The position numbers and the translations under genes are program-made. Of a stretch of 64,000 nt of DNA, positions 1,977 to 60,747 are shown piece by piece. This DNA comes from Bolinopsis microptera. Taxonomy: Eukaryota > Ctenophora > Tentaculata > Lobata > Bolinopsidae. The first letter of the stretch is position 1; every line of letters begins with the position of its first letter. The notes under the pieces were generated by a model. That model did no database searches. It worked only from the letters and a program-made list of their open reading frames with translations, and was not told the origin of the DNA. The stretch lies in assembly GCF_026151205.1 (NCBI RefSeq), contig NC_087074.1, forward strand, positions 19,636,740-19,700,739. The letters are read 5' to 3'.

Positions 1977-2248
1977 ATTATGTTACTATTTATCGATCTT
2001 GGTTACTATTTTACCGATTATGTTACTATTTATCGATCTTGGTACTCGAGAGTTGATGCATTGAATAGTCTACACTCTAGTTCTACAGCATTTAAATTCA
2101 GAAAATAACTTAAATATAGTTTTTAATAAACACAATAAGGAGATATAGAAACGCTTCGTTAGTGCTAAGTAGATGACAGGTCGCCACATTGCCGACTATT
2201 AGCACCTGTCATGTACTGCGCATGCTAAAGCTAAAGGGCGTAGCCAGG

Positions 2249-2560
2249 AGTGTTGTAAGAGGTTGGGCACTCTGCCAACTAAGTGGGCCAGGTCCGACCA
2301 GGGGTGATGTAAGAGGTTGGGCACTCTGCCAACTAAGTGGGCCAGGTCCGACCAGGGGTGTTGTAAGAGGTTGGGCACTCTGCCAACTAAGTGGGCCAGG
2401 TCCGACCAGGGGTGTTGTAAGAGGTTGGGCACTCTGCCAACTAAGTGGGCCAGGTCCAACCAGGGGTGTTGTAAGAGGTTGGGCACTCTGCCAACTAAGT
2501 GGGCCAGGTCCGACCAGGGGTGTTGTAAGAGGTTGGGCACTCTGCCAACTAAGTGGGCCA
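2249..2560. repeat. 54-bp tandem repeat, about 5.8 copies
   Basis: The unit contains GAGGTTGGGCACTCTGCCAA and CAGGTCCGACCAGG and repeats almost without change. Because 54 is divisible by three, several frames stay open on both strands; this is not evidence of a gene. A second block of the same unit lies at 3363-3447. Confidence 0.95.
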
Positions 2561-3362
2561 TGTTAAATTGTATATTCTGATCAATCACGGGAGACAAAGT
2601 AAAACACTTGTATTTTTGGGTTAGTAACTAAATTGGTAACAATTGGTTAAATGGGTTAGTAATTGAATTGGTAACAAATTGGTAATGGGTTAGCACACTA
2701 ACGCTGCACTCACTATCGCTGCACGTCACTCTACACAGACCTCAAACACAACTCTCACTCACTTAACCTCGTGAGTGGTGTGGTAATGTGATTACAAACA
2801 AATCTTCCCAAAACTGTAAATCCTTCTTAATAACAGTTCAAACTTCTTAGAAACTACTTCTTCTAACTTCTTCTAACTTCTTAGAAACTAAATCTTCTAT
2901 CACTTCCCCAGAAGTGATGTGAACGTGTTATGATATTCCCTTACTCACAAACACTAGATCTTCTCTTTAGGTTCTTCTGTGTGGTCCCCGTGACACACAC
3001 ACACTGGAACTTGACTTGTCTGGCTCTTCACTCTTACAGCAGCAGACTACTCACTAGAACTAAAAACAACCTTGTAAATATAAGAAAGTATGTTAGAAAG
3101 TAGTAACCCAAAACTACAAACCTAGGACTAAAGAAACTACTACAAAGAAACTGAAAAGGAACAAAGACCAAAATAAGCTAAACATTACACTACCTGCCCT
3201 TCAGGGTTAGCTCTCGTTCCGTTCACCTGAATCCTCTATACTAGACTGGTATTTACATCCTTGTTGTATTTACATGCTAAGGGAATGAATGTGTGTGAAA
3301 CAACAAAACATAACCACTCAGACATGTCTATGAATATAATAACTTAAAGGTAAAATATGATA
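2561..3362. other. 802-bp sequence separating two blocks of the 54-bp repeat
   Basis: Repeat unit sequence stops at 2560 (..GGGCCA) and resumes at 3363 (GGCCAGG..). The sequence between looks like an insertion into a once continuous array. It has short internal repeats (TTAGTAA.TGAATTGGTAAC type near 2620-2690; CTTCTTAGAAACTA near 2845-2890). I see no coding sequence and no clear terminal repeats. Confidence 0.4.
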
Positions 3363-24148: not shown

Positions 24149-27100
24149 TTAACTTCCATTGAACAGCGACGACACTTTAGTGTTATCAATTTTGTGGTTG
24201 AAAAGTTCGATCTCCTCATTTCTCTTGTTTAGGAACCTTTCAACAATATCATCAAACAGTGGGTGTTCCATCTTCTTTCCTTCCATCATGGAAACGTAAT
24301 GAGAGCCATTATAAAACCACCCTTCTGGAAGTTTCTCTCTCGCTGCTTCCAACTTTAGCATTTCCTTTTCTTTTGAACTCAAAGAAAATTTAGTGTATTT
24401 ATCTTTTTTTACGGGAGGTTTCGGAGCGCAGCCTTGTAACCACTGCTTCACCTGCTGTTCAGTTATTTTGTAGCCAGTGAAAATGAAACAATTCTTGCTG
24501 CCAGGAGGCAGGGGCTTGTTGAAAGTATTGAGAGAAATAGTTTCACTTCTTGGAGTACACTCCAGGGTGTAAAGGTTGTTATCCTCCGTAAACTTAGCTC
24601 TGCCTCCAACATAGAATATAGAGCCGGACATCATCAACCTATCAACATACACTCGTCCCTCCTTCTGGTGGAGACTCTTCAGATGGGACATGAAGCGAGC
24701 TTTACAGAGATCAGCTCCGAACGAGACTGTAAGATATGTAATGGGAATGAAGGGAGGATTTGGTTTGTATTGTAAGGAATACCATCCTGGAGCAGTAAAA
24801 TGTCTTGAAATTGGCAGGGTAGATTTAGCAAATGCATCAACTGTACACATTTCTACAAGGCTATCTTTGTCTATGTAGTTGTTTCCCACAACCTCAATAA
24901 TGCTGCACGAAGGGTTCAGGGTCTTCAAGAAACTAATTCTCTCATCTTTACCTTTCTGTTTGGAAGGAATACAACCGGTAACAATGATGTTGTTAACCCA
25001 TCCCTCGCTACACTGCTCAATTATTTTTGGGAAACATGTTCGGTTGCTTATAAACAGATTTCGTAAGTCAATGCAAGTGCTCACGGAGGCAACATGACAC
25101 GATTGCCTGGTAAACTTATCAGGATGATGGACAATAGCTGCAACCACCTCAGGTACTTCAACATAAGCAGAAACAATGACAATAACTCGAATCGGATCAT
25201 TTCCCCTCTTGCTCAGCATCTGTAGAGCTTTTTGCATGTTGTGAGCACTGAACAGCTCTTCAGAACCAAGTGGCTGTCTCAGTACAATGAAATGGTGGTC
25301 TTCTTTAGTTCCTTCTGTTACTATGGAGCAGATTTTCTCTTGGTTGCTACCAGGTATTCCAACGAGCAATGTGATGAAGATGAATGGTTCTGCTGTTTCA
25401 GATTTCATTGCTGGATTGACATCAAGTTGGTTGTAGGTGAAATTCCCCAGAGAACTTAGCATCATGTGAGGTGCAAATGACGGGTAAGTGGGATAAGAAG
25501 ACTCGATCATCCTGCCCTCATCTGAAGTTCCCAAGTTGCCAACATCACTGGTTTTAACAGTCACAATATTTTCGTATCTCAGCAGGAAATCTGGAGGTAA
25601 ATTTTCTGCAGACTCTGGTATATTGTACTCCCTAAACAAAGGCAGCAAAGTGTCATTTGTGAACCTCACACCTTTCCCTCGTTGCCAGAACACCAAGCAG
25701 AACCTCTTCAGGAATGGAGGTAAGCAATTAGAGGCATGTTCAAGGTAAAGTGCGACAGCGATTGATCCAGTTTTCTTTACTCTTATCTCCTTCAAGTCGT
25801 TTATTCTGATTTGAAGAAGCGTAGAATAAGGTGATGTTATGTTGATGGTGTTGTCCTCCAATCTGAACATAGCTTCATAAGTGTTAACATCGTTGCACAG
25901 CAGAGAGCACGGTACAGAGTCTGCATTTTGTGCTCCAAAATGGTTCCATTGCACATAGGTAGGAATAACGTCTGTAACGATCAGCAGCTCAGAGTCATCA
26001 GCAGAGACGTCATCATTTTTCACGATAATGTGAGACTCAAAGAATGTGTCTTGAAATACCAATGGTTTGTAGACAACTTTAGTATTTTGCAAACTAGCAA
26101 TATTTGAAACAGCTGCTCCAAACACTTTCATGCTTGACTTTGAGTTTGAACTCACTTTATTTCCTTTAACATCAAAAGCTTCTAGACTCACTTCAATCTT
26201 TACAGAGCTTGCTTTGAAATTTACAAGCTGAGGATATTTGTAAGTACTGAGCTTTTCAGTGAACTTCTTAGTGAAGTATTGAAGTAGCTTTGAGGAGTTT
26301 TGTGTGGTTAAAAAGCGTTGAATAGTTCTTTGTGTAGTGGCAGCCATGGCATCATATATTGATGAAAGGAGGACCAAATCACTGGAGTCAACATTGTCGT
26401 GTATAAAGTAAGTTCTTCCACAGCTCAGCGAACTTGGAGATTCTATAACAGAGCAAGTAATGAAGAATGGTTTTCTAGTAACCGCATGTTTTTCCAATCC
26501 AAAAACTGTGGCACCATGAGCATGACTATCACTTGTTTGGTTGCCATGCTCTAGATAGCTCACAACAGGATCAATAGCCTTATCCAAACTGTTATCTAGA
26601 GTTTCACTTTTTATCATATTGGACACATTCATTATCATAGTATTCCACTGGAAATTTAACAAGATGCTTGTATCTTTCAGCAGATGTTTTAGAGATCCTA
26701 GATCAAAGTCACTGAACACGGAGAGCTTTTCAAAGTTGAGTGGTATTAGCGAGTGAGTAAGTCCGAAAAATCCTTGTGAGCCATAGTCTTCCAGAGCGTA
26801 TGCTTGAAGTAGTGGCCATTTTTCAATAACCATTGGGTCGAACTCATTAGAGTCATTGGAGTACGGAATGGCAATTTTATTGACACCTTGAGTCATGGAG
26901 ATAAAGGAGTAAATTTTATGGTCCTCAACTATGTTCTCATCGCTAGAGATGTTGGCATCAAGGCAGTGAATTTGAAGATCATGAACTTTGGCTAGGTAGG
27001 GAAGGATGCTTTTCATGTCTTTGTGAGTGACATAAAGCTCGACTTTAGACGGCTTAATGAGCATCACAATTTCATCTGTATCAATTTCAAAGTATTTGCT

Positions 27101-27334
27101 GAAGCTCCCTGATTTATACATGGAGCAGCCAAATAAGATGAAATTAATGAAATGCCTACAGTCAGGATTGTAACGACTGTCAATTCCATTGATAGCAACA
27201 AAACCATCAATATTGTTATCAACCAGATATCTTTGAATTTTGTTGATTCTCAACAAGCACAATGTCGACGCATCTTTCACACATGTCTTTTTCTCAGTTT
27301 GAAATGGTTGAGATATGCTTCCAATGACAACCAT
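24149..27334 (-). CDS. DNAAF9: Dynein axonemal assembly factor 9 (C20orf194/Shulin homologue), single large exon
   Basis: An uninterrupted frame of 1061 residues from ATG at 27334; the human protein is about 1180. Family blocks: GIDSRYNPDCRHFINFILFG near residue 50, IEKWPLLQAYALEDYGSQGFF near 170, SSLSCGRTYF near 300, and the C-terminal LPEGWFYNGSHYV with HPLFDDIVERFLNKRNEEIE. Known role: the Tetrahymena homologue Shulin binds newly made outer-arm dynein and holds it closed for delivery to cilia; the mammalian protein was linked to ARL3. It acts in cytoplasm and cilium. Directly 5' of GTGATGG is tttatttctttttag, a strong acceptor 3 bases before the ATG, and its TAG is also an in-frame stop. 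So either a leader is spliced on there or the message starts just upstream. Vertebrate orthologues have many introns; this copy has none. Confidence 0.92.
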   Translation of the reverse strand: MVVIGSISQPFQTEKKTCVKDASTLCLLRINKIQRYLVDNNIDGFVAINGIDSRYNPDCRHFINFILFGCSMYKSGSFSKYFEIDTDEIVMLIKPSKVELYVTHKDMKSILPYLAKVHDLQIHCLDANISSDENIVEDHKIYSFISMTQGVNKIAIPYSNDSNEFDPMVIEKWPLLQAYALEDYGSQGFFGLTHSLIPLNFEKLSVFSDFDLGSLKHLLKDTSILLNFQWNTMIMNVSNMIKSETLDNSLDKAIDPVVSYLEHGNQTSDSHAHGATVFGLEKHAVTRKPFFITCSVIESPSSLSCGRTYFIHDNVDSSDLVLLSSIYDAMAATTQRTIQRFLTTQNSSKLLQYFTKKFTEKLSTYKYPQLVNFKASSVKIEVSLEAFDVKGNKVSSNSKSSMKVFGAAVSNIASLQNTKVVYKPLVFQDTFFESHIIVKNDDVSADDSELLIVTDVIPTYVQWNHFGAQNADSVPCSLLCNDVNTYEAMFRLEDNTINITSPYSTLLQIRINDLKEIRVKKTGSIAVALYLEHASNCLPPFLKRFCLVFWQRGKGVRFTNDTLLPLFREYNIPESAENLPPDFLLRYENIVTVKTSDVGNLGTSDEGRMIESSYPTYPSFAPHMMLSSLGNFTYNQLDVNPAMKSETAEPFIFITLLVGIPGSNQEKICSIVTEGTKEDHHFIVLRQPLGSEELFSAHNMQKALQMLSKRGNDPIRVIVIVSAYVEVPEVVAAIVHHPDKFTRQSCHVASVSTCIDLRNLFISNRTCFPKIIEQCSEGWVNNIIVTGCIPSKQKGKDERISFLKTLNPSCSIIEVVGNNYIDKDSLVEMCTVDAFAKSTLPISRHFTAPGWYSLQYKPNPPFIPITYLTVSFGADLCKARFMSHLKSLHQKEGRVYVDRLMMSGSIFYVGGRAKFTEDNNLYTLECTPRSETISLNTFNKPLPPGSKNCFIFTGYKITEQQVKQWLQGCAPKPPVKKDKYTKFSLSSKEKEMLKLEAAREKLPEGWFYNGSHYVSMMEGKKMEHPLFDDIVERFLNKRNEEIELFNHKIDNTKVSSLFNGS

Positions 27335-27337
27335 CAC

Positions 27338-29026
27338 CTAAAAAGAAATAATGTAAAATAAATGAAATAGTTCAACTCCATTATAAAATTTCGCAATACA
27401 TTAGAGTTAAATAGTCAATGAAACAATAAGTTCCCCAAGACACTCTAACATCCAAGCCTTCTATAAAACGTGGCAACTCCAAATCTTAACAGTGAGTGAT
27501 AAGACAGTTCAGTTAATATTGCTTTAAGGCCTAAAGTACAATGCACCCAATAATACAATTCAAAACCTTCCATCTCAAATTCATATAGTCACAGTTTATG
27601 TTTATACTAGTCGTGAGCATTGAATTCCGATTTATTAAATCCTGCACAGAGAAGGTAGTACTTCTTCTTCTACAGTCCCTAGTTTTTGGATGCTGGAGCG
27701 AATTAGCATACATCCACAAAATAACAAAAATGACCACTTTTGCAACACTTTCTAGTATCGAATCCGTAACATTGCACTATGCCAATTTGTTTAGTTACAG
27801 TATGCCAACAATTTCCGTAACAAAGAAACAGTAAACAATTAAAAGAACTTAGTTAGATCTTGAGCCAATCGAAACAGGTGATATTATGTCTCATTTCTTA
27901 TTTCAGCTGAACACAATCAATTTATGATTTTTGAAGGTTTCTGTTAGTACATCGTATTATATTTTTGAAGAACGACCCTCCGCCTCCAGTATGTAGTTTC
28001 GTATCAAGTGAGCTTATCAAGTTAAGAAAAATTTTGTTTTTCTTAACTTGTAAGGCTCGTTAGTCCGTGTGCCACGTGGCACATATTCACCCTATCTATA
28101 CCTTTCGGTCATAATTCCGGTTGAGAACCAATACTGTGTCTAAACTTAACGTTCATAAGCTGTTAACCTAATCTTAGATGGCACTGTGGAAGGGATACAA
28201 CAAAATAAGAGATTACAAAATTGATTTTGTCCAGCCATAAGGTCAGAAACCCTCAACAATAGTCATATAAAAACCAATTCAGTAGAGTACTATATTAATT
28301 GCAGCACACTACAATGTAAATATACTGAAGGGGTACCCTTTTTGATCTTTTGGCAGGGTCTCTCAATCACGTATCAGATCATTCAGCTGAGTCGGTCGTT
28401 GAGACATTAAACAAATGTTCAATTTCGCATAGATCCAATGGATCCTTATTAGCTACTCCCTAAAACATACATATAAACTAGACGACACTGGGATTCAAAT
28501 CCTTGATGCAAGTTTGCCTGAATTGGAAATATCGTCAAAAAGGCATTTCACTATTTGTTCCGTATTGGCATGTACGCTAGCATGGCGGCAAAGTGCAGCT
28601 GAATCGGCGGGTATGATGGGGATCTGGGGAGCCAGATGGGTGTCTTGAGTTGTTCACTGCCAGTTTCTCCTTCTCTTCCACCCAGCATAAAGCTGGGTGG
28701 CTCCTAACTTCACTACCAGGTTGTATATTGACTAAATAAAAATTTAGTTATACCTATTTTTACCACTTTCTTCTCAATCAGTTTCGATTATTCAACCTCC
28801 ATAATACTCTCTTCTTTTATGAGTCCAGGATAACAGTTGCTGCATCCTCAGCAAGTTTCTTGTTGAGAGGATGGTTTTTTGATGATCTTGCTAGCATAAT
28901 GACCACTGGTCGCTGCTAACACTGTTCTCATTAATTCTTGTCTTCAATTTTGTTATTTCACCATTCAACTCACTTTCTTTCCTCAGCTACACTTAATCGC
29001 TGACAACTGGTGGTGACTGCTCTTGA
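27338..29026. other. Gene-free stretch between DNAAF9 and the LINE
   Basis: No gene recognised. A hairpin AAGAAAAATTTTGTTTTTCTT lies near 28023-28044, interrupted only by its short loop. The right part (perhaps from about 28.3 kb) is probably the 5' untranslated region of the LINE that follows; its exact 5' end could not be placed. Confidence 0.4.
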
Positions 29027-29083
29027 TACCTTGACGGCAATCCAGTGAACCTGAATCCAGCTCCCTCATCTTGGTACAATACA

Positions 29084-30439
29084 ATGTTTAACCTCAAAGA
29101 TACTATTGAATCGCTTTCATCCGCTTCAACACAGGACCTAGCAGCCCTCATTAAAACTGCTCAGAAGATTATGGATTTTAGGCACCTGGTTGGACACTTG
29201 GAATTTATTCCAGATATAATTGACAGTGCAGTTTGTTCCGACTTGTTGGCTGAGTGTGATTCCCTCAACTTGTCGGCTTCATCCAGAAGACCTGAGTCAC
29301 AATGGCTCAGTGTAACCGACAGGCCTTACATATATGTCGATAGTAAGCCAGTACATCATGCTAAGGACATTACCACACTTCCTACTTTCAGTAAAGTTAT
29401 GGAGACATTTAATGAGAGGTTTAATTGCAAAATGGACTCTTGTTTAGTACTCAAGTACACTTCAACAAGTGCAGGTACGAGTCTGCATGCAGACGACGAA
29501 ACAACCATGGACACAAATCAGCCCATTTGTAATCTATCAATTGGTGAACCCCGGACGATTGACTTTCTCTCCAATGCTGACAAAAAGGTTGTCCGATCCT
29601 TCAGAATGGAGAACAGAAGCCTGGTGCTTATGAAACCTGGTACCCAGGAGGTTATGAAGCATCGCGTTCCTGGTGAATCAGGCGCACCTGGGACACCTTC
29701 GCTGAGATATTCATTATCCTTCCGGGCTATGGCAAAGCGTCCTCAGCCACCTCTACCGGATGTAGCACAAACGAAGGGAGCTGAACAACCGTCAGGTCAC
29801 GTCAAGAGTGATATTGATAACGGTAGCCTCACAGCTCCAGCATTCAGACATGTGTGCCTAATCGCTGGTGATAGCTATGCTGCCAGGCTGGACACTGTAA
29901 AACTTGGTAGAAAATGTGTTGATGTTGTGTCTGTTGCCAGTGGAGGAGCAAGAATACATCAAGTGATGGAGCAGATTAGAGATTTTAAGTCTAAGAATGA
30001 GTCTGTCATTGTAGATAAGATATGTATTAGTGTCGGAACGAACGACATTAGATATGCGGACTCTTTAGATAAGATTAAGCTTAAATTTAAGAGTCTATGT
30101 GCTTTAATCAAAGAACTTTATACTTCTTCAAAAGTTTATTTTCAGTCCCTTTTACCTCTGCCTTGCAAAAGCAGGCATGACTGGAGAACTAACTCTTTTG
30201 TTATGAAAATGAATAGTGTCATCAAGAATGAATGTATATATCGAAGATTCCATATGTTAGACGCTTTTCGTCCATTTTCTCTACGATACTTTGATCCTCG
30301 AGTACCTCATATCAGAGATGATAGATTTTTCAAGGCTGGAGACATCCATCCCAGTGAGGCTAGGGGCATGGGTGTCCCAGCTAAACTTTATCTGAGAGCG
30401 GTTCATAGTAACTTTTTTGACCCATTCACTTTTCAGTAA
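29084..30439 (+). CDS. LINE ORF1: AlkB-like dioxygenase fused to SGNH/GDSL esterase
   Basis: 451 residues from the first ATG; an in-frame stop lies upstream at 29024. Residues about 115-217 look like an AlkB-family Fe(II)/2-oxoglutarate dioxygenase. The iron ligands H135-x-D137 (SLHADDE) and H193 (VMKHRVP) are present, with NLSIGEPRTIDF between them and RYSLSFR (R208, R214) as the 2-oxoglutarate/substrate arginines. After a linker, residues about 255-440 form an SGNH hydrolase: S264 in AGDSYAA, G287 in ASGGAR, N320 in VGTNDI, and D420/H422 in GDIHPSE. Esterase domains in ORF1 are known for CR1-like LINEs; AlkB enzymes repair alkylated nucleic acid bases. I infer that ORF1 binds or repairs the element RNA or acts on membranes. 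All catalytic positions I looked for are kept. Confidence 0.88.
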   Translation: MFNLKDTIESLSSASTQDLAALIKTAQKIMDFRHLVGHLEFIPDIIDSAVCSDLLAECDSLNLSASSRRPESQWLSVTDRPYIYVDSKPVHHAKDITTLPTFSKVMETFNERFNCKMDSCLVLKYTSTSAGTSLHADDETTMDTNQPICNLSIGEPRTIDFLSNADKKVVRSFRMENRSLVLMKPGTQEVMKHRVPGESGAPGTPSLRYSLSFRAMAKRPQPPLPDVAQTKGAEQPSGHVKSDIDNGSLTAPAFRHVCLIAGDSYAARLDTVKLGRKCVDVVSVASGGARIHQVMEQIRDFKSKNESVIVDKICISVGTNDIRYADSLDKIKLKFKSLCALIKELYTSSKVYFQSLLPLPCKSRHDWRTNSFVMKMNSVIKNECIYRRFHMLDAFRPFSLRYFDPRVPHIRDDRFFKAGDIHPSEARGMGVPAKLYLRAVHSNFFDPFTFQ

Positions 30440-30992
30440 TTACTATTAGGGCTTTAGGGGTCAAGCTAGTTTTCATAATCCGAATTTTAAGATATATTAG
30501 ACTGTGTTTTAAAAGTTTTTGGAGCTGGATGTCGGTTAACAGGGTTCCCTTAATGCTACTAGATGATAGATCTAAGTCAATATAGATTAAGAGTTGGTAT
30601 TTATAACAACAGTAAGAACCGCAGATCTAAGCAGGTTAGTATAACAGGTAACTTTGTGCCCGACATCGGGGTTCTTGATGCTTTAAGACTTTTTGTTTTG
30701 ATTTATTTGTATCTCTATTTTGCATTATGTGTGATGAGTGTGACGATTGGGATGGCTTTGGAGTGTCATTTTAGACCTTTTACTGTCACAGCCTTCCACA
30801 GCATCTCAGACAATGAATTTATTCATCTCTTCCACAGTCATAGCAAAAGCTATGCTGCGGTATTAATGTTTTTTCTCTTCAAAAGACTGGTGGCTTTATA
30901 AAATTTTAGGGGCTTCTCCTGGCTTACTTGGCAAGCTGAACTTCACTGGTCTTGAAAACAAGCCAGACAGTTACGGATACATTCAGCTAATT
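30440..30992 (+). other. Inter-ORF spacer of the LINE, with a possible small ORF
   Basis: 553 bases separate ORF1 and ORF2. An ATG frame of 112 codons (30563-30901) includes a hydrophobic run, LRLFVLIYLYLYFALCVMSV. It has no recognised domain and may be chance. How ORF2 is translated (re-initiation or separate message) is not shown. Confidence 0.3.
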
Positions 30993-33900
30993 ATGCACTA
31001 CCTCAATATTATTACTGTTAGCTGCATGCTTTGGATACATACCTTGAACGCTGTCCTTTTAATTATTGTCAACCCAAGCTTACTTAACCCTGGGCCTACT
31101 ACATACCTCAAGGTTGTTTCTTTTAATACGCATGGCCTGATTCCCTTCTCACAGCTACAGTCCGACAATCCTTCTTTTGACAACACTAAAATATTTGAAC
31201 TCCATCACTATATTCACTGCCATGAACCAGACATCCTCCTGATCAATGAATCTTGGCTTAAAAAGTCTATCATTGACTCTGAAGTCATACCTGAATCGTA
31301 CAAAGTTTTTAGACTTGATCGTTCCTTACAAACCCATCCACCAGATCCACAGAATCCAAGAAGATTTAGGAAGCATGGGGGTGGCGTTTTAGTTGCTATA
31401 CGTAGGGACATTGATATTGTATCTACTAAGTTAGAGTACAAGTGCCCGGCAGAGCTTCTTGGTATAACACTCAAATTTAGGGACGGTAGTAAACTAATTC
31501 TTTGCAGCTTCTATAGGGTAGGTACTTTAGGGGCCAACAATCATAACGCCTTCCAAGATTATGTTAGGAAGGCAAGGCAACGTAGAGGTGTTAGAGGTAT
31601 TGTAATTGCAGGGGATCTTAATCTACCTGGTATTGATTGGCAGAATTACTGTAGCAGCAATCCGGTTGAACAGCTCTTTCTAGATACTTTTAGTAACTTT
31701 GGTTTAGAACAACTTATTACCAGTCCAACACATACTGGAGGAAACATTCTTGATCTAGTCTTAACCGATAAACCCCATCTTATCTCCGATATAAAAATTT
31801 CAGAACATAATATTCCATGTAAGTCCGACCATTTTGCAGTCTCCTTTACTTTGAAATCAAAGGTGAAGCGCATCAAATCGCAAAAGAGGGAATCTTTAAA
31901 TTTTAAAAGAGCAAATTGGGATGCACTTAATGCAGACCTTGCAGATATTGACTGGCAGGCAGAGTTCACTGGTAATATGGAAACATCATGGAACAAGTTT
32001 AAGGAAGTTTTAGAGCAAAGAACCAATGAACATATTCCAAAGATTAAAATTGGAGGCAGGGCTCAACCTCCTTGGTTTGACGCTGAGTCTCATCAGGCCT
32101 GCCTAGAAAAAGAAAGGCTACACAAAAGTTATAAAGAAACCACGGACCCTTCCTGCAAGGCTGAGAAGTACTTTAAGTTCTCTAAAAGCAGAAGCGATTT
32201 TAAGAAAATTGCCTCCAACAAGATGGCATCTAGCTTTGAGGACGAGGATGATTCGAATCTAATTACAAAGAAATTCTGGTCCTATGTAAAAGCAACATCT
32301 AAGAATACTCGCATACCTGAACAAATTCACCTAGAAGATGTACACAAAAGTGATCATTCTGACCAAGCAAACCTATTTAATACCTTTTTTCATCAACAGT
32401 TCTCATCGCCTAGTGATTATGATGTACATGTTGATAACACACTCACACAGGATGATATTGATTATGTATCTACCCTTTTCAGTTCGTCTAGGATAGTAGA
32501 TATTCTCAAGAATTTGAATACTAGAAAAGCTATGGGACCGGATAAAATCCATGGTGAAGTTCTTAAAAATTGTGCCTTTACGTTAGCCCCAGCACTGGAG
32601 ATTCTTTTCACAAAGTGCTATGTATCCGGCTTCCTACCTTCAAATTGGAAATATGCAATTGTTGTTCCAGTACACAAGAAAGGCTCCAAGAATGACATTA
32701 AGAATTATAGGCCAATATCTTTGACTAGCTTAGTTATGAAAGTCATGGAAAGAATTATTCGAGATGAACTTTTGAGTAGATGTTATGATAAAATTGATCC
32801 TTGTCAACATGGTTTCCTGCCTCACAAATCTTGTGCAACTCAGATGGTTGAATTCTGCGATAGCCTATCCCTCTCTCTTAACAAGAACATTAGATCTGAT
32901 ATTGTTTACTTCGATTTTGCCAAAGCATTCGATTCCGTTAACCACGACTTAATACTATATTAGCTAAAATTTTATTATAACATCGATGGAATGCTTCTCC
33001 AATTTATGAAAAGTTACCTCTCCGGACGTCAGCAATGTGTAGTTGTTAATGGGGCTATCTCTGCAACCCTACCGGTGTTGTCAGGTGTTCCTCAAGGGTC
33101 AATAATCGGACCAACACTTTTTGTTCTTTTCATAAATGATATATATTCTGGACTTTCTCAGGGCACTAATATCCTTTTATACGCTGATGATACTAAAATG
33201 TGGAGAGAGATATCCCAAGAGGAAGACCACCATATACTTCAAAGCGATATTAATTATCTCATGACATGGGCAAGAACTAATAAGATGAAGTTTCATCCTG
33301 ATAAATGTAAGGTCTTAGCTATACTTAAGAGGTGGTCTCCCTTAGATGGCATTTTACCATTTACACGTTACACTTACTCTATGGGCCAAACTCTTCTTGA
33401 TTATACAGATTCTGAAAAAGATTTAGGCATATTCATGACGTCTAATCTAAATTTTAATAGCCAGGCCGATGCTCTATATGGTAAAGCTAACCAAAAATTT
33501 GGCATGCTTAAGAGAAATTGTCATTTTATTAATGATCTGAACAAGAGAAGAGTCTTGTATCTTACTCTTGTACGCTCAATATTCGAACACTGTCCCATCA
33601 TTTGGCGACCAGCGTCCAGTAGCACTATCAATAGGCTTGAAGGATTGCAGAAAAGGGCCCTCAAATGGATTCGTAATGATTACGGTGTAAGCTATAGTGT
33701 AGAGGAAATCTATAATGCCCATTGTAAACAGTTAAATATTCTGCCCCTAAAGTACAGGTTTGATTACCATGATCTCAAGTTCTTTCATTCCCTAGTGCAT
33801 CAATACCACCCATGCACCACTCTGCCTCAGTACCTTACTTTCTTCTCCGGGTCAAGCCGACTGAGAAGCTCACATCTTGATCACTTATCAGTAATATCTT

Positions 33901-34115
33901 CAATTCCACCTGGCTCAGCTATATCTAAATCTTACTTTTATCGAGCTCATCTCACTTGGAACCGACTTCCTCTTTCCCTTCGAGAGATTATCAGACCAGG
34001 TGTGTTTAAAACAGAACTTATTAAACACATCTGGAAGGAACATGTTTGTACTGCATCTGTAGATATTGACCCTAGTTCAGATCCTGACAATTCTTTTTCT
34101 CCAGACTACGGGTAG
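30993..34115 (+). pseudogene. LINE ORF2: APE-type endonuclease and reverse transcriptase, one in-frame stop
   Basis: One reading frame of 1040 codons, interrupted only by TAG at 32961-32963 (codon 657). N-terminal APE endonuclease: N45 (SFNTHG), E86 (INESWL), D208/N210 (AGDLNLPG), NILDLVLTD and S278-D279-H280 (KSDH). Reverse transcriptase: KAMGPDKI, NYRPISLTS, QHGFLPHKSC, FDFAKAFDSVNH, then after the stop GVPQGSIIGP and the catalytic LLYADDTKM, followed by a CR1-type thumb and tail. The stop lies between the FDxAKAFD and GVPQGS blocks, so the truncated product lacks the second half of the active site unless the stop is read through. The first 40 residues are hydrophobic and contain LNPGP, a possible degenerate 2A motif. 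Confidence 0.9.
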
Positions 34116-34588
34116 TGTATTCCTCTATTATTTTTGTTTTAATTTTTTTTTTGAGGTACTCATCACGCATTTTTGCTTTATTCGGATACAATTTTGATTT
34201 AGTCTTTTATATTCAATTATTTAAATTTTATCGTTAAAACTTCATTCCATTGGAAATATTACAAATCAGCCAATTGTAATTGAGAATTTTTGGGTTGTGG
34301 CAATTATTCTTAAAAACCTAGAAATGCCTCCTAAGTTCACAGCTCATATTATTTGCCCATTTTTCTCCTTCTGCACTTGGGGCCCAATGTAATTGCTCGA
34401 CTTTTCATCAGGTCTCTCGAGGCCTTTTGTTTGGTTATTTGGGTGTATTGGTGTCCCCTGATTGTTATCATCGCTGTACACTTGTCAAGGCATTTCTTGG
34501 TCGCTCTAGTCCATTTTTAGAAATTCTATACAACATTGATATTGTAATAAATTCTGATGATAATAATTGAAAGATTTCAATAAAAAAA

Positions 34589-35760
34589 ATGTTCATATAC
34601 CAAAGTTTAAAACAGCGCTCGATTTTCACAGTTGATAAAATACGTTATGCGCGGCGCTTTCAAAATTTTATCAACAAATTTATTTCGAATAGTTATTATT
34701 TATTGTATCACGTTGCGACCCCCACGGTCGTTTCACTATGTCTTCGACGCTACAGGGGGAGCCGCGCACTTCGTGCGCGGCGGGTCATACAACGTATGAC
34801 AAATTATTTATAGATTAAATTTATTTTATGCGAAATTTATTTTTATTTTTAGCTTGTTGGACAATTTATCATTCCGCCATATTCAAAGCTAAAGAGTTTT
34901 TAATATTTAAGTTTTAGTTACCGAAGCCCGCTGAGAGCTGCGCGTAGAAATAAGATTGTTGAGCGATAATTGCGCTGGTGCTACATTTTATACCATTGGA
35001 TAGCAAAAATGCTCAATCGAATGTCGCCCTTCTCAAAAAACTCAGCACAGGTTCTCATAAAAAGTTATGAACATTTATATGGTCAAAATAAATTCATACG
35101 CCGCGCGCCGAACAAAATGAATTCATAATAGAATAACTTGTGCGTCGCTACACGTATCTATGGATACGCGTCGCTTCACGTATCTATGGACACGATGACT
35201 ATATATAGGCATGAGCGGACGGCTCATTTTTCATATCATTACAGTCGCGCGTGTGCTAAATACAGCAGTCCTGCGAGTCATGTTGTTAAAATCTCGCCTC
35301 GTCAAATTGAAAGAACTTTACTTGCTTTAGAAGCTAAACATGGCCCAACCATGAACCAGCGAATGCAATGTGCCACGATGCAAATGTTGTGAACTTAAAG
35401 CTTCCCTTGGAAAGTGGAAACTTCTACTGCTTATAGAGTTACAACATCATTTATTTGTTATTTCCCAATGTAGTTAGTGTCTGTGGAAAGGCTTACGTCG
35501 GTCGCACTACTCGCTCTTTACGGGTTATATTATACGGGCCGGTTATATTATATATTAGGACTGGAGAACATAGGGTCAAATATTATAAACTTTTAAATGG
35601 CGATAAATAAGTGATGAATATAGTTTTTGCTTACATTTATTGGATCGTGGTTATACTTATAGACAAAGGGAACATTTCTGTGTCGATCATTGATAATTCT
35701 AGTCCCAAAACTTTGGAAGTCCGTGAACATGAATATATTTAACTTCTCTAGACTTTAATT
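34589..35760. other. Gene-free stretch
   Basis: No gene called. A GC-rich palindrome CCGCGCACTTCGTGCGCGG lies near 34762-34780, and duplicated words CGTCGCTACACGTATCTATGG and CGTCGCTTCACGTATCTATGG near 35145-35190. An 84-codon frame at 35138-35392 starts without ATG and has no recognised domain. Confidence 0.4.
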
Positions 35761-45522: not shown

Positions 45523-48284
45523 ATAAAGGTTCAAATGAGACAGGTAATAAGCATACAACAGATATGCCGATAACAAATTAGAAAAGAACTGTTATGTAAT
45601 ATGAATTACCATTCAATACGGATAATTTGCTCCTAAATTCTAAGTAATAGTAAAGCATTTGCAAATAAAATACGTCGTACACTGATCACGCTATGAAATT
45701 GAAATGCTAGATTAATCCGGCGGGCAACTTTGAGTGGCTTGTGGAAGAGGTATATACAAATTAAGCCTGGCTTGATGTAAAGAGGTGGAAGAGGTGGAAT
45801 GTTTGCGGAGTACATCACCTCTGTTTTACCAAAAGTTTTGAGACTGTGCGCGCGATTTTGACACGTGAGCGAGCGCGCAATTTTATTAATGTTTTTTTAT
45901 CATTTATACAAAATTCTTTATTTAATATATCTTGGGTTTGAACAGGATACTACCCGCTTAAAATATTTCCACTGCGTTACATAATACTCAATAAGTCAAT
46001 AAATTTATTAGATTTGTAGATATGTTGCAATTAGTTTAAATGTGTATGTTCATAACCAACCAAGACGCGCGCTGAGTTGAAACAAAAACAAAATATTTTA
46101 CGAGTACCACCCGTTCATATCAGTTTAAATTATTTACATATAATTTTTACAAATGGCAAAATCATGCGTTGTCAATGATAAATCGATTTATTATTGAGTG
46201 TACTTAACTGGTAACAAATTTATTATGTGTTTTAATTAAAAACCGTTTTGTTCCGCTGCACTGCAAAACCGTAAACCAAACAAACCGTAAACCAATTAAA
46301 AACCTCGATTTACCGTGTACCCCAATTTACTGCGGATCACGGATGTTTCCTTCCCCAAACTCCTCGGTAAATAAGGGTTTACTGCAGCATATCACATATC
46401 GATTTAACATATTATCGTACATCTGCATCGTAGTTATACTAAATATATATTAAACGGGTCTTTTAAAATGTCTAATTTGTGATATCGAGCAGTAAGACCT
46501 TGTACAAGCAGCTTCAACTTCTGAAACGATTTACGTTCTATGATTATAACACGAAATAGAATTAGAATAATCTGGTAATTCTGAATTCGATGCGCGCGGT
46601 TGTACGTGCTTGTTGTTTCATAGCGCGGCCCAAATTGTGACAAAACAGAGCAAATAGCTTGTTGGACATATGTATCGCGCGAGAACGTTTTTGTAGACGC
46701 GCATGTGACATCACGAGTGAAGAGCTCGCATTGGGAGTAATTTGTAATTTTTGATGTTTTAAGATAAAGTTGCAAAAAATGTATAAATATTCCAACAATC
46801 TGGTTAAAATCAAATTTTCAATTTGATTAAATGATTTAAAATACTTATGTTAGAAAAAAAGAAAATGTTTATATAAAGAAAAGACAATTCTTTCGACTAA
46901 ACTGTCCAATTGGAAATTTATAACCTACCAAGACGCGCGCCGAGTTATATAGATTATTAAATTCGTCGATCAGTACTGTTTTAAAATTAGGAACAGTCTT
47001 AATATTCGGAACAAATATTTTACGAGTATCACCCGTTACCTAACATATTTAGTACAACAACATGTTTAGGTATGTCCATGTATGATGTAATAGTTTCTAA
47101 TTCAATTACTGTTGATAGAGTCAATGAAACAATAAATTTTCAATGAAACAACAAGTTTTATTTTACATTTCTTTAATCATAGATAAAATACAAGCACAAA
47201 TTAGCAATTGACTTGAAATGAATTTGAAGAATTATTTGTTTGGTGATTGTTTATAATTATTTAGTAAATTTTATTTGATTGCTTATTGTATTTTTATTAT
47301 GGCAATTGGTTGAATTTAGTGAGGCAGGGTTAGTTTCTTTATTGTATTAGAAACATGTTTACTTTACAGTAGGCTTAATGCTGAGTAGCAGGCTTAATGG
47401 CGAGTAGCAGGAATGAGGGACCAAAACGCTTGGGGCTAACAATGGCCCATTTACAAACCACTTCAGACATGGTATGGACAATGATCTCAAAAAACATATT
47501 AAAAACATATTGTATAATATGAGGGAAAAATTAACAAAAGAGGCGCCAGTACCAAGAGATAAACCCTTTCCCCAATCCAGGTCCTGGGCAAACCAAGTAA
47601 AGAGAAATAAAGGATAAAGGATAAAGGAAAAGAAGAAGAAGAAAAATGTCTAAGTGGACATCATCAGCAAATGACTTGGCTATTTTCTTTGATGTCATTT
47701 ATGCTTAATTTGTCTGAAACTGACCCTAGTGCAGTCAGCAGTGCAGGGTGAGAATCCTTGTCAGGTTTTACTGGTTCTTCCAGGGCTCATGTCTGTCCGC
47801 ATTGCACTTTGTGGCGAGGCAGCATTAGTGTCTATAAAAGAATCTTGTGCCTAGCGAGGGGACTCGCAATGCCATGGTGGGCTATGAATACACCAGTTTA
47901 ACTCACGAGGCAACTCGCAAAAGCCATGGTGGGCCTTGAATACGCCAGCTCCTCGGGTTACTATAGAGCTGACAGCGCTAGTGGGCCCCCTTATGTACCA
48001 GGACTCTACCGGCAACGATCGACTAACGCCCCAGATATAAGCAAAGATTGGCGCGCAGTCATAAACAGCGGGTGCGCGCACAGAACTGCTTCCCGCTAGT
48101 ACCAATAACACTCACCTGACTCCCACGTGACACTAACCTCACGCCGCGGTGCGGTATTTCGATCATGACAAGCCAAACCGGATTAAACCACTTGTTAATA
48201 TAGCCGTTCTGCTTGCCAGTCTCTACATTAATTAGCCCGCTGGGTTTTGCTGCCCCCTGTTTGCAATTTTGCCGCCCCCTCGGA
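45523..48284. other. Gene-free stretch with dispersed repeats
   Basis: No gene. About 46055-46125 and 46925-47040 share ACCAAGACGCGCGC and ATATTTTACGAGTA.CACCCG in direct orientation, about 0.9 kb apart. Two diverged copies of a 53-bp unit (CTCGCAA..GCCATGGTGGGC) lie at about 47856-47955. The MITE at 46297-46385 is listed separately. Confidence 0.4.
46297..46385. mobile_element. Diverged Tigger-like MITE copy
   Basis: It is related to the element at 61672-61757: AACCTCGATTTACCGTGTAC, CCCAATTTACTGCGG, TTCCCCAAACTC and CGGTAAATAAGGGTTTACTG match in the same order. Confidence 0.6.
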
Positions 48285-48780
48285 GAGTGTAATGGGAGTA
48301 TCGCTACAATATGGGAGTGTAATGGGAGTATCGCTACAATATGGGAGTGTAATGGGAGTATCGCTACAATGTGGGAGTGTAATGGGAGTATCGCTACAAT
48401 ATGGGAGTGTAATGGGAGTATCGCTACAATGTGGGAGTGTAATGGGAGTATCGCTACAATATGGGAGTGTAATGGGAGTATCGCTACAATATGGGAGTGT
48501 AATGGGAGTATCGCTACAATGTGGGAGTGTAATGGGAGTATCGCTACAATATGGGAGTGTAATGGGAGTATCGCTACAATGTGGGAGTGTAATGGGAGTA
48601 TCGCTACAATATGGGAGTGTAATGGGAGTATCGCTACAATGTGGGAGTGTAATGGGAGTATCGCTACAATGTGGGAGTATTATGGGAGTATTGCTACATT
48701 GTGGGAGTGTAATGGGAGTATCGCTACAATGTGGGAGTGTAATGGGAGTATCGCTACATTGTGGGAGTGTTATGGGAGTA
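48285..48780. repeat. 30-bp tandem repeat, about 16.5 copies
   Basis: The unit is GGGAGTGTAATGGGAGTATC plus GCTACAATRT. Most variation is A or G at one site near the unit end. The order over the first ten copies is AAGAGAAGAG, suggesting an embedded five-unit (150-bp) duplication. Open frames across it follow from the period being divisible by three; the GSIATIWECN-type peptide is not evidence of a gene. Confidence 0.95.
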
Positions 48781-48785
48781 ATGTA

Positions 48786-49339
48786 TAGTAGTTACCACAC
48801 CAAACGTGTGTAATGTGTGTAATGGCATAAATGGACCCTGGATCAGAACCTGTTTTTCCTGTGTCGTACAATATGATCCCTGCTCCTGTTATTTCTGGAC
48901 TGAGTGAGAGTCCACCTCACGTGACGTCACAAACCCTCACGTTTTAGCTCAGCCACCAAAAGGCAGATAGTATCAATACAGTTCCCCACCACCTAACACA
49001 CTATCCAAACGTTAGCACACCCGCAACCGCCATTAGCAACCTACGTCTCACCAAGTCTCAAGAGCCAGCATTACTCAGCACGGGCGTCATCCTTTCATGG
49101 TGTTGAGCGGCCAGGGTAACCACCCAGAACTTCCCTAGGGACCAAGTTAGTAAATCTCCGGAGGTGCAACCCCGATTCGGCTTATACCTTAGCAGGTATT
49201 ATCATCCAGTGGCCCTCAGGGAAGGGGCTTAATGCAGATAGATGGACTCCAGTAGGACGCTCCCCAAGTGGAGGGTCGCCACCTCTATATGACGGTGGTC
49301 AGTGGGTGTCGCGACAAAAAAAAAAAAAAAAAAAAAAAA
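48786..49339 (+). mobile_element. Possible retroposed sequence ending in A24
   Basis: GC-richer sequence (clear from about 49070) ends GTGTCGCGAC followed by 24 A (49316-49339). No coding sequence, no tRNA-type box pair and no target duplication found. A SINE or 3' LINE fragment is likely; the 5' end is unknown. Confidence 0.35.
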
Positions 49340-50471: not shown

Positions 50472-53337
50472 TTAGTTATCGTCGACTATGATTGCAGTGT
50501 AAAATTTGTCATATGAATTGTCGACGGTATAATTAGGGTCTGTTGTTATAGATGATAGTAGCTGTTTCTTATACGAATCACTAAAGCTTTTAACATCGGG
50601 CAGATTTCGTAGATCTGTTGGAACATTATTCCAACATTTTGCCCCCAAGTATTGAAAGTTTTTATGTGATGTTGATCTATTGACATAAAGGTTGCAGCTT
50701 TCGCCGCTCCTACTACCTCCTGATATGTAACTAAATTTGTTCATAAAGTTTGTAGGACAATTGTCATGGATGATTCTAAACATATAATTTGACAGATGGA
50801 GTTGTCGTCTAAGATGGAGTGGTAACCATTTCATGTCTCTATAAACATTAAGGCTGCTCTCTGTTTTTGGAACGTTGAGAGCTATTTTGGCTACCTTTTT
50901 GTACAGAGTGTCAAGTTCAGCAAGTTTTGTCTTGCCAGCTCTACAATAGATCGTGTCTAAATAATCGAATTGTGGCAACATGAGTGCATTGGCAAACATT
51001 TTCCTATATTTAATGGGTAGCAGTGCTTTACTTCTATACATGGCACCAATTCTCTTCATGACCTTCCTAATAATATAATCTACATGGCTTTTGAAGTTTA
51101 ATTTACTATCTAAAATGAGGCCAAGATATTTTGTCTCTTTGCACTCCTTGATTGTGAAAGTTACCTCATTACAATCAATGGTTATTTCATCATGTTGGTC
51201 AACAGAATCAAACAATAGGAATTCAGTCTTCTTTTCATTGAGTGATAATTTATTAACACTGAGCCATTTAAAGATTGTCATAAGTTCTATTTTCATGTTT
51301 ATAAATGTGCTTCTGCAGGTTTGATCAAAGAATAGTGCACCATCATCTGCAAATAGAAAGGGCTTAGATAGGTTACAGGCATAAATGATGTCATTTATGA
51401 AGATACTAAATAATATAGGCCCAATGATGCTTCCTTGTGGTACACCACTCAGAACTTCTAAAAATGAGCTTAGATTGCCATTGATCCTAGTGCATTGATA
51501 TCTACAAGATAAGAAGTTCTTAAACCAGGTTAAAGCAATGCCACCAATTCCATAATATGCCAATTTTTGAAGCAATATTTCATGATTCACTGTGTCAAAG
51601 GCCTTCTTAAGATCAAGAAAGATGATTCCTGGTTTATAAGACTTAGATTTACTCATATATATATTTCGTCCATCAGATCGTACATCAGATAAGTTGTGGA
51701 GTGATTTTTCCGAAAGCCATATTGATGCCGGATGAAAAGTTTGTTCTCTTCCATGTAATCAGTGAGTTGCTTGCCGACAAAGTATTCTATAAGTTTTCCT
51801 ACAAGTGGAAGGATGGATATTGGCCTGTAATTATTAGGATCATCTTTCATTCCTGCCTTATGGATGGGAGTTACTCTAGCTTTTTTACAAAGGGTTGGTA
51901 CAACACCTGTATTAAGGCTCAGATTGACAATGTGGGTCAGTGGCTCAACTATGTGTGGTACAGCTTGCTTAAGTAAAAATAGAGGCACATTGTCATATGA
52001 GGCCTTGTCATTCTTGAGCGTTTCGACAATCGACATACATTAGGATATCAGTTTCATTTATTTCTTGGAATCTATCAAATGAGATATTAGAAGTTCTAGG
52101 AGGTAAAAAATCAGTAAAACTAACTCTTTCAATATTGGGGGCCTGATTTTGTAATCTTGATCCAACATTTGCAAAATGAAAGTTAAATAGCTCAGGATCA
52201 TTCTCATTGATAGTTTGACAATTAGTTGTACCAGGGGTCATATTTGATGCCAGTTTGATAGTTTTCCATATCCCTTTAAGATCATTCTTGGCACTTTTAA
52301 CTTGTAGATCATCGATTACATCAGCCTTTTTGCAGGTTTTAGCTAATTTATTTCTAATATTTCTCTGAATCTTGTAGCAATCCCAGGCCTCATTACACTT
52401 TATACATTTGCTACATGTACCACATTTATTGCAATTTCCATTGTCTCTCTTATCCTTCTTTTTACGGAATTTCTTTAGAAGAAAATGTGTATGATTAATG
52501 GCATTTAAAAGTTCAGTAGAAGGTTTATGTATGTATGAACTTTTCATGCCTTTCTATGGTCTTGCAAGGGAAGAAGGTTGCATATGCCTGTTCAATATGA
52601 TGACAAAGGCCAGCAGTGATAGCTTCAACATCTGTACTTTCCAATAGTGGACTGTAATCAGAACAGGTATCTAGATAGTCTAAGAATTAAAATTGTTTAA
52701 CATTACGTTTACAATGATTTCTAATTTCAACCTTCTCAAATTTAGGAGCTATAGGTACTTTACAATCTATCTCACACATAATAGCTTGATGATCTCCAAT
52801 ACGTTCATCAAGAACAGAAGATTGGACAAAATCTGCATAACAGTTAGTGAATATTACATCAATAGTAGTCTGGGTAAAATTGTCTCCACGTTTAGCAACT
52901 CTAGTTATCCCTTGAATGGTTTGAACTAGATTGTAACATCTCAAGGTCATATCTAATTTTTTGTACTGGGTGGATGAGATATTATTCTGGTCTATGTTTA
53001 TATCCCCAATCCAGATAACCTTTTTCCCATTCAGTTTTTTCATGCAAAAATGAATGTATTCAATAAAGTTATCAACACTGCAATAATTTCCAGAGCGATA
53101 GAAGCAGCAAACATTGATCTTGCTATTCTTAAGCTTCACCCATAATGCTTCAATGTTATCAAGCTTACTATCCATAACTAATTCTGTGTAAGCTAGTTTT
53201 TTGTTTATCATTAAGCCACAACCACCCCTAGAACTGTTTGGCCTGTCACATCGCATAAGGTTGAAGGAGGAAGGAATATTTATGGTGTCTGTGTCAATAG
53301 TATCATTAAGATTCATCTCATTTAGGGAAAGTATATA
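50472..53337 (-). pseudogene. LINE ORF2 relic: endonuclease, Cys-rich linker, reverse transcriptase
   Basis: Read on the minus strand from 53337. Endonuclease part: SLNEMN, GGCGLMINKK, IGDINID, TTIDVIFTN and IGDHQAIM, with an in-frame TAA near 52685. The linker (52008-52547) has CNKCGTCSKCIKCNEAWDC, an unusual Cys cluster. Reverse transcriptase: NNYRPISILPL and QYGFRKNHST, then FLDLKKAFDTVNH, GVPQGSIIGP, the catalytic FLFADDGAL (FADD), and a tail to 50472. Frameshifts lie near 52547, 52030 and 51655 (the last in an AT repeat). The C-terminal 394 codons are unbroken. Confidence 0.88.
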
Positions 53338-59350: not shown

Positions 59351-60087
59351 CTACAAGTACACTGACTTGTTATCAGAATTTATGAAATGTTATATGTTAT
59401 GTTCATATTCTTTATCTACGTGCTGATATTATATAGTTTGTTTTACATAGTATGTATTTAGTGTAAGTTGTGGCTGTTGATTTCTATAAACCGTTTTCAA
59501 CAAGTTTTTACAAATGCAGGATTTTGTGTGGAGATTTAGGTAGAATAAAGAACTGTGGCTCAAATTTTATTATATTTAGGTCAAGGCATAATACTATATT
59601 TAGGTATTTAGGTCAGCCATGATCCATTGAGCTCGCAGGACTGAAAGTCCTTGTAAAGCAGGTCTGGCTTAAATTGTAAGTAGGTGCAGGTTGTTTCATT
59701 TCCAAGGATAGCAACTTTATTTTGTTTTAAATAAATTGTGTATACTGCTCAAAAGCCCCTATGGGTGGCCTTCGGGTCTTTCAATCAATCACACACAACT
59801 CTAACGTTATACTGCAACATCATTATTCTAAAGATTTCATGTACAGTGCTTGAACTTCACCTTGTTTTGTCATTTCAGTAAGGTCCTAGCTCTTATAGGG
59901 TTCACAACAGGCGTTGTTGTTAACTAATCAGCAGACTATCTGAATGATGTAACGCTAATTTGATTCTAATTCTAATTCAAGTTACTATCCAATTACTCAA
60001 GGAAGGAATAATGGGTAAATAATTTACTCAAAAGTAAGCCTGGTTGGCCATGCTGCTGCCCTTCTATTCTTTTTGTTTTACTTATTT
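59351..60087. other. Gene-free stretch upstream of the MRG gene
   Basis: No chromodomain coding sequence could be found here or in the 1.5 kb before it. It may contain a promoter or intron. Confidence 0.4.
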
Positions 60088-60141
60088 ATGGCTGATAACT
60101 ATCTGTTACTCCAATCCTTAACTTCAATTTCGTCTAGTAGT

Positions 60142-60747
60142 ATGGTTACAACTGAAAGGAAAAGAAACAACCCTCTTAAGCTCCTTGCTGAAACTGGAAG
60201 ACGTGAACAGCCAAGAACCCGAAAACGAAACAAAGGAGAGGATTCGGTTGACAACAAAAATGGCAACCAAATTATCTTGTTCTTTAGTCCCGGCCTAAAA
60301 GAAAAACTTATTAAGGATAGGGATCTGATCGTGGCAAAAAAGTATTTGGTGAAAATACCCTCGAAAGTGACCTGTGAAATGATATTCAAAGAGTTTCTCT
60401 ATCATGAAAATCAAGAAAATTCGATCTACTTCAGTAATGGTGTATCTCAAGATATGATTAGTGGAATCAGGACTTACTTTAATCATAGATTCATCGTTGA
60501 ACTACTTTACAAGCCAGAACTACCTCAGATCAAGAACTTGGCTGGAAAAACAGTATTCACTGAGATTTATGGTTGCGAACATTTGTTGCGGTTGATGACT
60601 TGTATTGGAAAACTCATTTCACCTAATGAGTTTGATGAATGTGGGTTTAATATTCTTCAGATGCATTACCAGAGATTTTTGGAATTCATTGATGTTAACA
60701 GAGATACCTACATGCCTGGAGATAATTATTTTCAGGTCGTTCAATGA
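60142..60747 (+). CDS. MRG-domain protein (MORF4L/MRG15-like) without chromodomain
   Basis: 201 residues from ATG 60142; an in-frame ATG at 60088 would add 18. After a basic segment (RTRKRNKGEDSV) comes an MRG domain from LKEKLIKDRDLIVAKKYLVK to the C-terminus, with ISGIRTYFNHRFIVELLYKP, TEIYGCEHLLRLM and MHYQRFLEFIDVN. These align with the MRG fold of MRG15 (YFN...QLLYK.E.PQ, YG..HLLRL, FL.Y). Known role: MRG15/MORF4L1 scaffolds NuA4 acetyltransferase and Sin3-HDAC complexes, the MRG domain binding partners and the chromodomain reading H3K36 methylation. No chromodomain is encoded here, as in the human retrocopy MORF4. The exon could be 3'-terminal: cttcaatttcgtctag lies 4 bases before the ATG. 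A poly(A) signal follows at 60838. Confidence 0.8.
   Translation: MVTTERKRNNPLKLLAETGRREQPRTRKRNKGEDSVDNKNGNQIILFFSPGLKEKLIKDRDLIVAKKYLVKIPSKVTCEMIFKEFLYHENQENSIYFSNGVSQDMISGIRTYFNHRFIVELLYKPELPQIKNLAGKTVFTEIYGCEHLLRLMTCIGKLISPNEFDECGFNILQMHYQRFLEFIDVNRDTYMPGDNYFQVVQ

Follow-up and report, generated by a model that had tools for sequence, protein, structure and literature searches.

INTRODUCTION

LINEs with a type IV (esterase) ORF1, such as ZfL2-1 and CR1, encode a protein with an N-terminal helical part and an SGNH domain, followed by an ORF2 with an APE endonuclease and a reverse transcriptase. In the accessible text of Schneider 2013, esterase ORF1 proteins are described as being without structured RNA-binding domains, a transposon-specific His191/Ser228 pair is given for the ZfL2-1 esterase, and a membrane role of this domain for the ribonucleoprotein is favoured. 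The ORF1 typology of Metcalfe & Casane 2014 covers 448 elements in its Table 1, from which AlkB is absent, and neither this table nor the accessible part of Schneider 2013 names AlkB for an esterase-type ORF1.

AlkB domains have been found in other selfish elements. They occur in plant RNA viruses of the Alpha- and Betaflexiviridae and Closteroviridae, where they are part of a viral protein and are thought to preserve the viral RNA, according to the available portion of PMC9289625. The same source describes, in the orchid Phalaenopsis, a Ty3/Gypsy LTR element that acquired an AlkB as a separate ORF, m6A-demethylase-like and with its cofactor-binding residues kept (PMC9289625).

Here we describe a LINE in a 64,000-nucleotide stretch of the ctenophore Bolinopsis microptera genome (NC_087074.1, positions 19,636,740 to 19,700,739; hereafter the window), in whose ORF1 an AlkB-like dioxygenase domain stands ahead of the SGNH domain. 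In the open-licence literature, the scope of the search (Repbase and most subscription journals lie outside it), none of the matches listed describes AlkB in a LINE ORF1. To judge from the accessible text on it, the orchid element is the closest precedent found. It differs from the window element, which is a LINE whose AlkB is fused to an esterase within ORF1, resembles ALKBH2/3 and is present in several diverged groups.

RESULTS

A LINE whose ORF1 joins AlkB and SGNH domains

A sequence-only reading of the window had proposed that a LINE ORF1 here fuses an AlkB-like dioxygenase to an SGNH esterase. This was borne out: the 451-codon frame (Table 1) matches PF13532 (2OG-FeII_Oxy_2) at residues 70–214 (E=4.6e-15) and PF13472 (Lipase_GDSL_2) at residues 263–426 (E=1.2e-10), both above the curated Pfam cut-offs, and a LINE ORF2 lies downstream. 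The AlkB part also matches the PHROGs family 'alkylated DNA repair' (E=1.9e-20). Helices at the N-terminus are predicted by AlphaFold at pLDDT 61–73 only. The AlkB part was modelled in blocks at pLDDT 64–97, and the model was used for this part only, the SGNH half, which includes blocks below pLDDT 70, being left out.

Table 1. Positions of the LINE, its domains and other features within the window.
Feature	Position	Strand	Remarks
LINE element, whole	28567..34589	+	ends set against two other full copies
ORF1	29084..30439	+	451 aa: N-terminal helices, AlkB, linker, SGNH
AlkB-like 2OG-Fe(II) dioxygenase domain	29186..29734	+	residues 35-217; Pfam, PHROG, AlphaFold, Foldseek
SGNH/GDSL hydrolase domain	29849..30436	+	residues 256-451; Pfam and profile matches
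ORF2, endonuclease and reverse transcriptase	30993..34115	+	one in-frame TAG (32961-32963) in the window copy
Second, diverged LINE ORF2	50472..53316	-	in pieces; 26-37% to the first RT (tblastn)
DNAAF9 (dynein axonemal assembly factor 9) homologue	24149..27337	-	1062 codons open, no introns
MRG-domain protein	60073..60747	+	one uninterrupted frame, Pfam E=8.2e-29
Tandem arrays	48165..48884 and 2190..2617		units of 30 nt and 54 nt; each array forms an open repetitive frame

The window LINE is 99.4–99.5% identical to the C8 and C13 copies over ~28567–34589, with unrelated flanks; it starts with GGCATGTACGC and its 3' end consists of AATAAA and an A-run. No target-site duplication of at least 7 bp was found at the three full copies within the stretches compared. 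A candidate 9-bp duplication at 28413/34587 was rejected, as it falls outside the element, whose start is placed at ~28567 by the copy comparison.

ORF1 and ORF2 are separated by 553 bases in the window copy, and both are uninterrupted in at least one sister copy. EEP endonuclease and RVT_1 domains were identified in ORF2 of the window copy, of one group A copy and of one group B copy (groups are defined below). The element is a two-ORF, APE-type LINE, and from its build we take it to belong, probably, to the Jockey superfamily and to be CR1/L2-like. Among the neighbouring features in Table 1, the DNAAF9 homologue is either an intron-poor gene or a retrocopy.

The AlkB domain resembles ALKBH2 and ALKBH3

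The three iron ligands (H135, D137 and H193) and the RYSLSFR motif picked out by the sequence-only reading are all present and, together with the 2OG arginines R208 and R214, align with those of AlkBs. The alignments contain the HxD...H and RxSL(T/S)FR motifs of the family, and its double-stranded beta-helix is seen in the AlphaFold model. Throughout an alignment of eight ORF1s the five residues do not vary, and the core has the form R[YF]SLSFR.

When the profile of these eight AlkB domains was compared with the PDB, matches were obtained to ALKBH3 (E=1.4e-12), ALKBH2 (2.2e-8) and E. coli AlkB (3.9e-4), and the 47 PDB sequences retrieved at E-values of up to 1 include no ALKBH5 or FTO chain. 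Structure prediction gave the same neighbours: in a Foldseek search of the PDB with the modelled AlkB half, ALKBH2/ALKBH3 were the closest solved folds, the best 20 rows having E-values of 9.9e-14 to 5.7e-12, TM-scores by target of 0.66–0.76 and identities of 12–20%. The domain is accordingly assigned, by profile and predicted fold only, to the ALKBH2/3 type. ALKBH3 and AlkB strip m1A and m3C from single-stranded RNA and DNA, and both methylated bases obstruct Watson-Crick pairing and reverse transcription. The nearest solved relatives of the ORF1 domain thus point to methyls of the m1A/m3C type rather than to m6A.

ALKBH3 and ALKBH2 are cellular repair enzymes, and the host frames sampled fall outside the group of transposable element (TE) AlkBs. 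In an unrooted tree of 28 rows, which leaves out other host ALKBH types and has good support at 7 of its 25 inner branches, ten TE AlkBs stand apart (support 99/96) from 15 phage or plasmid AlkBs and from three host frames, which we take to be one ALKBH2-like and two ALKBH3-like.

Conservation extends well beyond the window copy. In an alignment of 37 frames, which represents ten lineages (group B counted as two) and contains the window copy twice, H135, D137, H193, R208 and R214 are all kept in 34 frames (28 distinct proteins), two of these having one stop; the other three (L035, L036 and L059) are cut short, so that not all five positions are covered. Two observations had been named in advance as fatal to the sequence-only reading, namely the lack of a significant AlkB match and the loss of the H-x-D...H ligands from other copies. 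The Pfam, PHROG, profile and fold matches are significant, and the ligands are retained in other copies and groups.

The proposed comparison of dN/dS among copies yielded, between the sister sub-groups of B represented by L038 and L041 (dS ~0.6–0.9; ~0.85 for the AlkB part), values of 0.16 for AlkB, 0.10 for SGNH and 0.44 for the linker. For AlkB, comparisons inside young sub-groups are noisy, with ratios from 0 to 1.46 on few changes (L038 versus L043, 0.85 from 12 changes; L041 versus L053, 1.46 from 6). These substitution ratios demonstrate purifying selection on AlkB and SGNH between the diverged sub-groups.

The SGNH domain has a variable acid residue

S264, G288, N320 and H422 are invariant in all eight alignment rows of the SGNH blocks; N320 is part of GTND (318–321), of which GTN is likewise shared by every row. 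S264 and N320, both put forward earlier as SGNH residues, therefore stand, but the glycine had been placed at G287 rather than G288. The proposed D420/H422 pair held for H422 only: D420 is located at H-2, and the canonical catalytic Asp (DxxH, H-3) is not present in the window ORF1. An Asp at H-2 ('DIHP') is found in groups A ('AGDIHP') and C ('RFDIHP'), group B ('SNGIHP'/'NKGIHP') has Asp at neither H-2 nor H-3, and canonical DxxH is kept by group E and by the 551- and 646-aa frames described below. As three groups have the Asp displaced or missing, 'D420/H422' overstates the triad, and some groups may have only weak esterase activity or none.

The SGNH profile matched PDB entries 6njc (E=7.5e-13), a sialate O-acetylesterase/lysophospholipase-type chain, and 4c1b ('ORF1-encoded protein', E=5e-12), which we take to be the ZfL2-1 esterase. 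At the places of His191 and Ser228 the window ORF1 has Ser316, invariant across the eight aligned ORF1s, and Gln. The kinship with CR1-type esterases that had been implied for this domain does not extend to that pair; the domain is, by its sequence, an SGNH hydrolase whose membership of the ZfL2-1 sub-lineage is unsupported by the His/Ser pair.

The fusion recurs in diverged groups across the genome

A search of the genome (264.65 Mb, 232 contigs) returned at least 95 matches to ORF1 (94 of 778 candidates scored). Sorting by identity and frame length placed 93 of the matches listed in five groups, labelled A–E in this analysis, with two short N-terminal pieces left out. Among the matches listed, identity to the window ORF1 is 94–100% in group A (n=5), 39–43% in B (n=24), 36–37% in C (n=6), 33–36% in D (n=29) and 30–31% in E (n=29). 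Group A is young, judging by the near-identity of the window element to the two other full copies.

Both domains exceed the Pfam cut-off at loci L038, L041 and L060, and at L085 and L086 AlkB is above and SGNH below it. In group D, Pfam found AlkB only, in an incomplete stretch. The AlkB part of group E was not matched by PF13532 at E<=0.01; it matched the related 2OG family PF03171 below the cut-off (E=0.0022), its ligands are present, and the SGNH domain was found. Within the alignment of eight, the AlkB-SGNH fusion persists in ORF1s at 28–39% identity.

Twenty elements of groups A, B and C were retrieved at length, and each has an ORF2 downstream on the same strand, several of these ORF2s being partial or in pieces. 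In a genome-wide search for reverse transcriptases, in which only the best 110 of 4730 candidates were scored, one of those listed lies within 6 kb downstream of ORF1 for 4/5 members of group A, 20/24 of B, 4/6 of C, 2/29 of E and 0/29 of D. The zero for group D may reflect the scoring of the best reverse transcriptases only.

ORF1 matched 13 phage and 2 plasmid records through AlkB only; none of them covers 80% of ORF1, and the SGNH part had no phage match. Viral contigs scanned with queries P0001, A2 and the ORF2 part gave no relative, and query A1 gave 24 viral AlkB loci, which were used for the fold and tree analyses only. Among contigs of other genomes the search returned one locus only, L031; it is a LINE, and its ORF1 looks, by eye, to be of CCHC type. 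This locus, which also has a long ORF2, lies on contig VFKM01000197.1, filed under a Flavobacteriales MAG and probably representing eukaryotic contamination.

AlkB and SGNH domains also occur in other frames

PF13532 matched the genome at least 151 times (587 first-look candidates), many of them in frames whose length recurs. The 121 PF13532 places that were compared all lie clear of the ORF1 matches, so the best-scoring AlkBs of the genome, among the matches listed, lie in other frames. Three such frames that were fetched (593, 551 and 646 aa) carry AlkB; in two of them an SGNH domain follows at E-values below the Pfam cut-off in significance (1.8e-4 and 3.2e-6), and in the third, an incomplete stretch, it was recognised by motif reading only.

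At least 140 SGNH places above the cut-off were compared with the AlkB places listed: 86 fall inside ORF1 matches, AlkB lies upstream of 4 and, in reversed order, 1.25–1.8 kb downstream of 8, and 42 have no nearby AlkB among the matches listed. The reversed pairs lie in frames of 229–3321 aa, and for six of the eight the open-frame length is equal for both domains. Six recurring frames of 426–434 aa (for example C8:7962741-7963067, minus strand) have SGNH and no AlkB among the matches listed, and are perhaps an esterase-only relative.

One AlkB (L084, C12:8337600-8339400, minus strand) is in a 3366-aa open frame, with no SGNH among the matches listed. A PIF1 helicase (L090, C12:8330600-8333000, minus strand) follows ~5.8 kb downstream and shares its reading frame, 4.6 kb between the two stretches being unread. 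Of the Helitron hallmarks, a Rep (HUH) nuclease and a PIF1 helicase within one protein, PIF1 was seen at L090, the part covered, and the long AlkB frames (3,226–3,388 aa) are perhaps Helitron-like.

DISCUSSION

The recurrence of the AlkB-SGNH pairing with an intact AlkB active site suggests a role in the repair or un-marking of the element's own RNA. In the full form of this explanation, to which we give about an even chance, the helical segment, a preserved ALKBH2/3-type AlkB and the SGNH domain of ORF1p together serve the element RNA. ORF1p would coat this RNA, with AlkB contributing the nucleic-acid grip, a contact with RNA that was reported to be missing from esterase ORF1 proteins. AlkB would also oxidatively strip Watson-Crick-face methyls (m1A, m3C) from the single-stranded intermediate of the element; such methyls would halt reverse transcription during target-primed synthesis, and AlkB would clear them beforehand. 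The role proposed for the ZfL2-1 esterase, to anchor or release the ribonucleoprotein at membranes, may also be that of the SGNH domain here.

The same conservation could be read differently. AlkB might counter silencing by removing host-laid m6A from the element RNA, or 6mA from its DNA, and the abundance of AlkB frames in the genome and the reported in vitro activity of the orchid Ty3/Gypsy AlkB on m6A RNA (accessible text of PMC9289625) speak for it. We nevertheless judge it unlikely, since the ORF1 profile is ALKBH2/3-like and retrieves neither ALKBH5 nor FTO within the range searched, and since the orchid domain, unlike that of ORF1, is reported to be close to m6A RNA demethylases (PMC9289625). 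On the main explanation, too, un-marking need not pay: for mammalian L1, the available part of PMC7873242 describes the m6A writer METTL3 as helping and the eraser ALKBH5 as suppressing the element.

It is quite unlikely, in our view, that AlkB is kept mainly as an RNA-binding module with catalysis secondary: wherever a frame covers the Fe(II) and 2OG ligand positions (34 of the 37 aligned), the ligands are retained, which exceeds the needs of binding. Such a role would nonetheless suit the esterase ORF1 proteins in RepBase, for which a structured RNA-binding domain was missing and the mode of RNA binding was asked about (Schneider 2013, in the text accessible). That TEs capture domains, and that group A is young, would also allow a domain of no benefit simply riding on an active LINE; the AlkB dN/dS at a dS of ~0.85, the conserved ligands and the retention of the fusion at such low identities make this highly improbable. 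Clearance of Watson-Crick-face methyls from the element's single-stranded intermediate is the reading that we prefer.

That AlkB is found close to an esterase in either order hints at cooperation between the two activities. That both enzymes recur in further long frames, and that a helicase accompanies AlkB in one such frame, suggests, at the level of sequence, a shared need, which may be a copyable single-stranded intermediate. More tentatively, and rather against the balance of probability, AlkB and SGNH could form a mobile 'escort' module: a single TE-specific AlkB lineage, combined with SGNH in either order in LINEs and Helitron-like elements, that would keep single-stranded intermediates methyl-free and membrane-tied. 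If so, transposons of two classes would run their own epitranscriptomic repair.

Plant RNA viruses are likewise selfish RNA-based elements with an AlkB of their own, although the likeness to the LINE is by description only. We know of no esterase in their AlkB proteins. Of the two halves of a LINE, ORF1 is less well understood, and a demethylase-type enzyme in an esterase ORF1 offers it a testable role, the erasing of methyls on the element's own RNA. Self-encoded AlkB, described before in plant RNA viruses and in an LTR element of an orchid, is hereby extended to the LINEs of a ctenophore genome.
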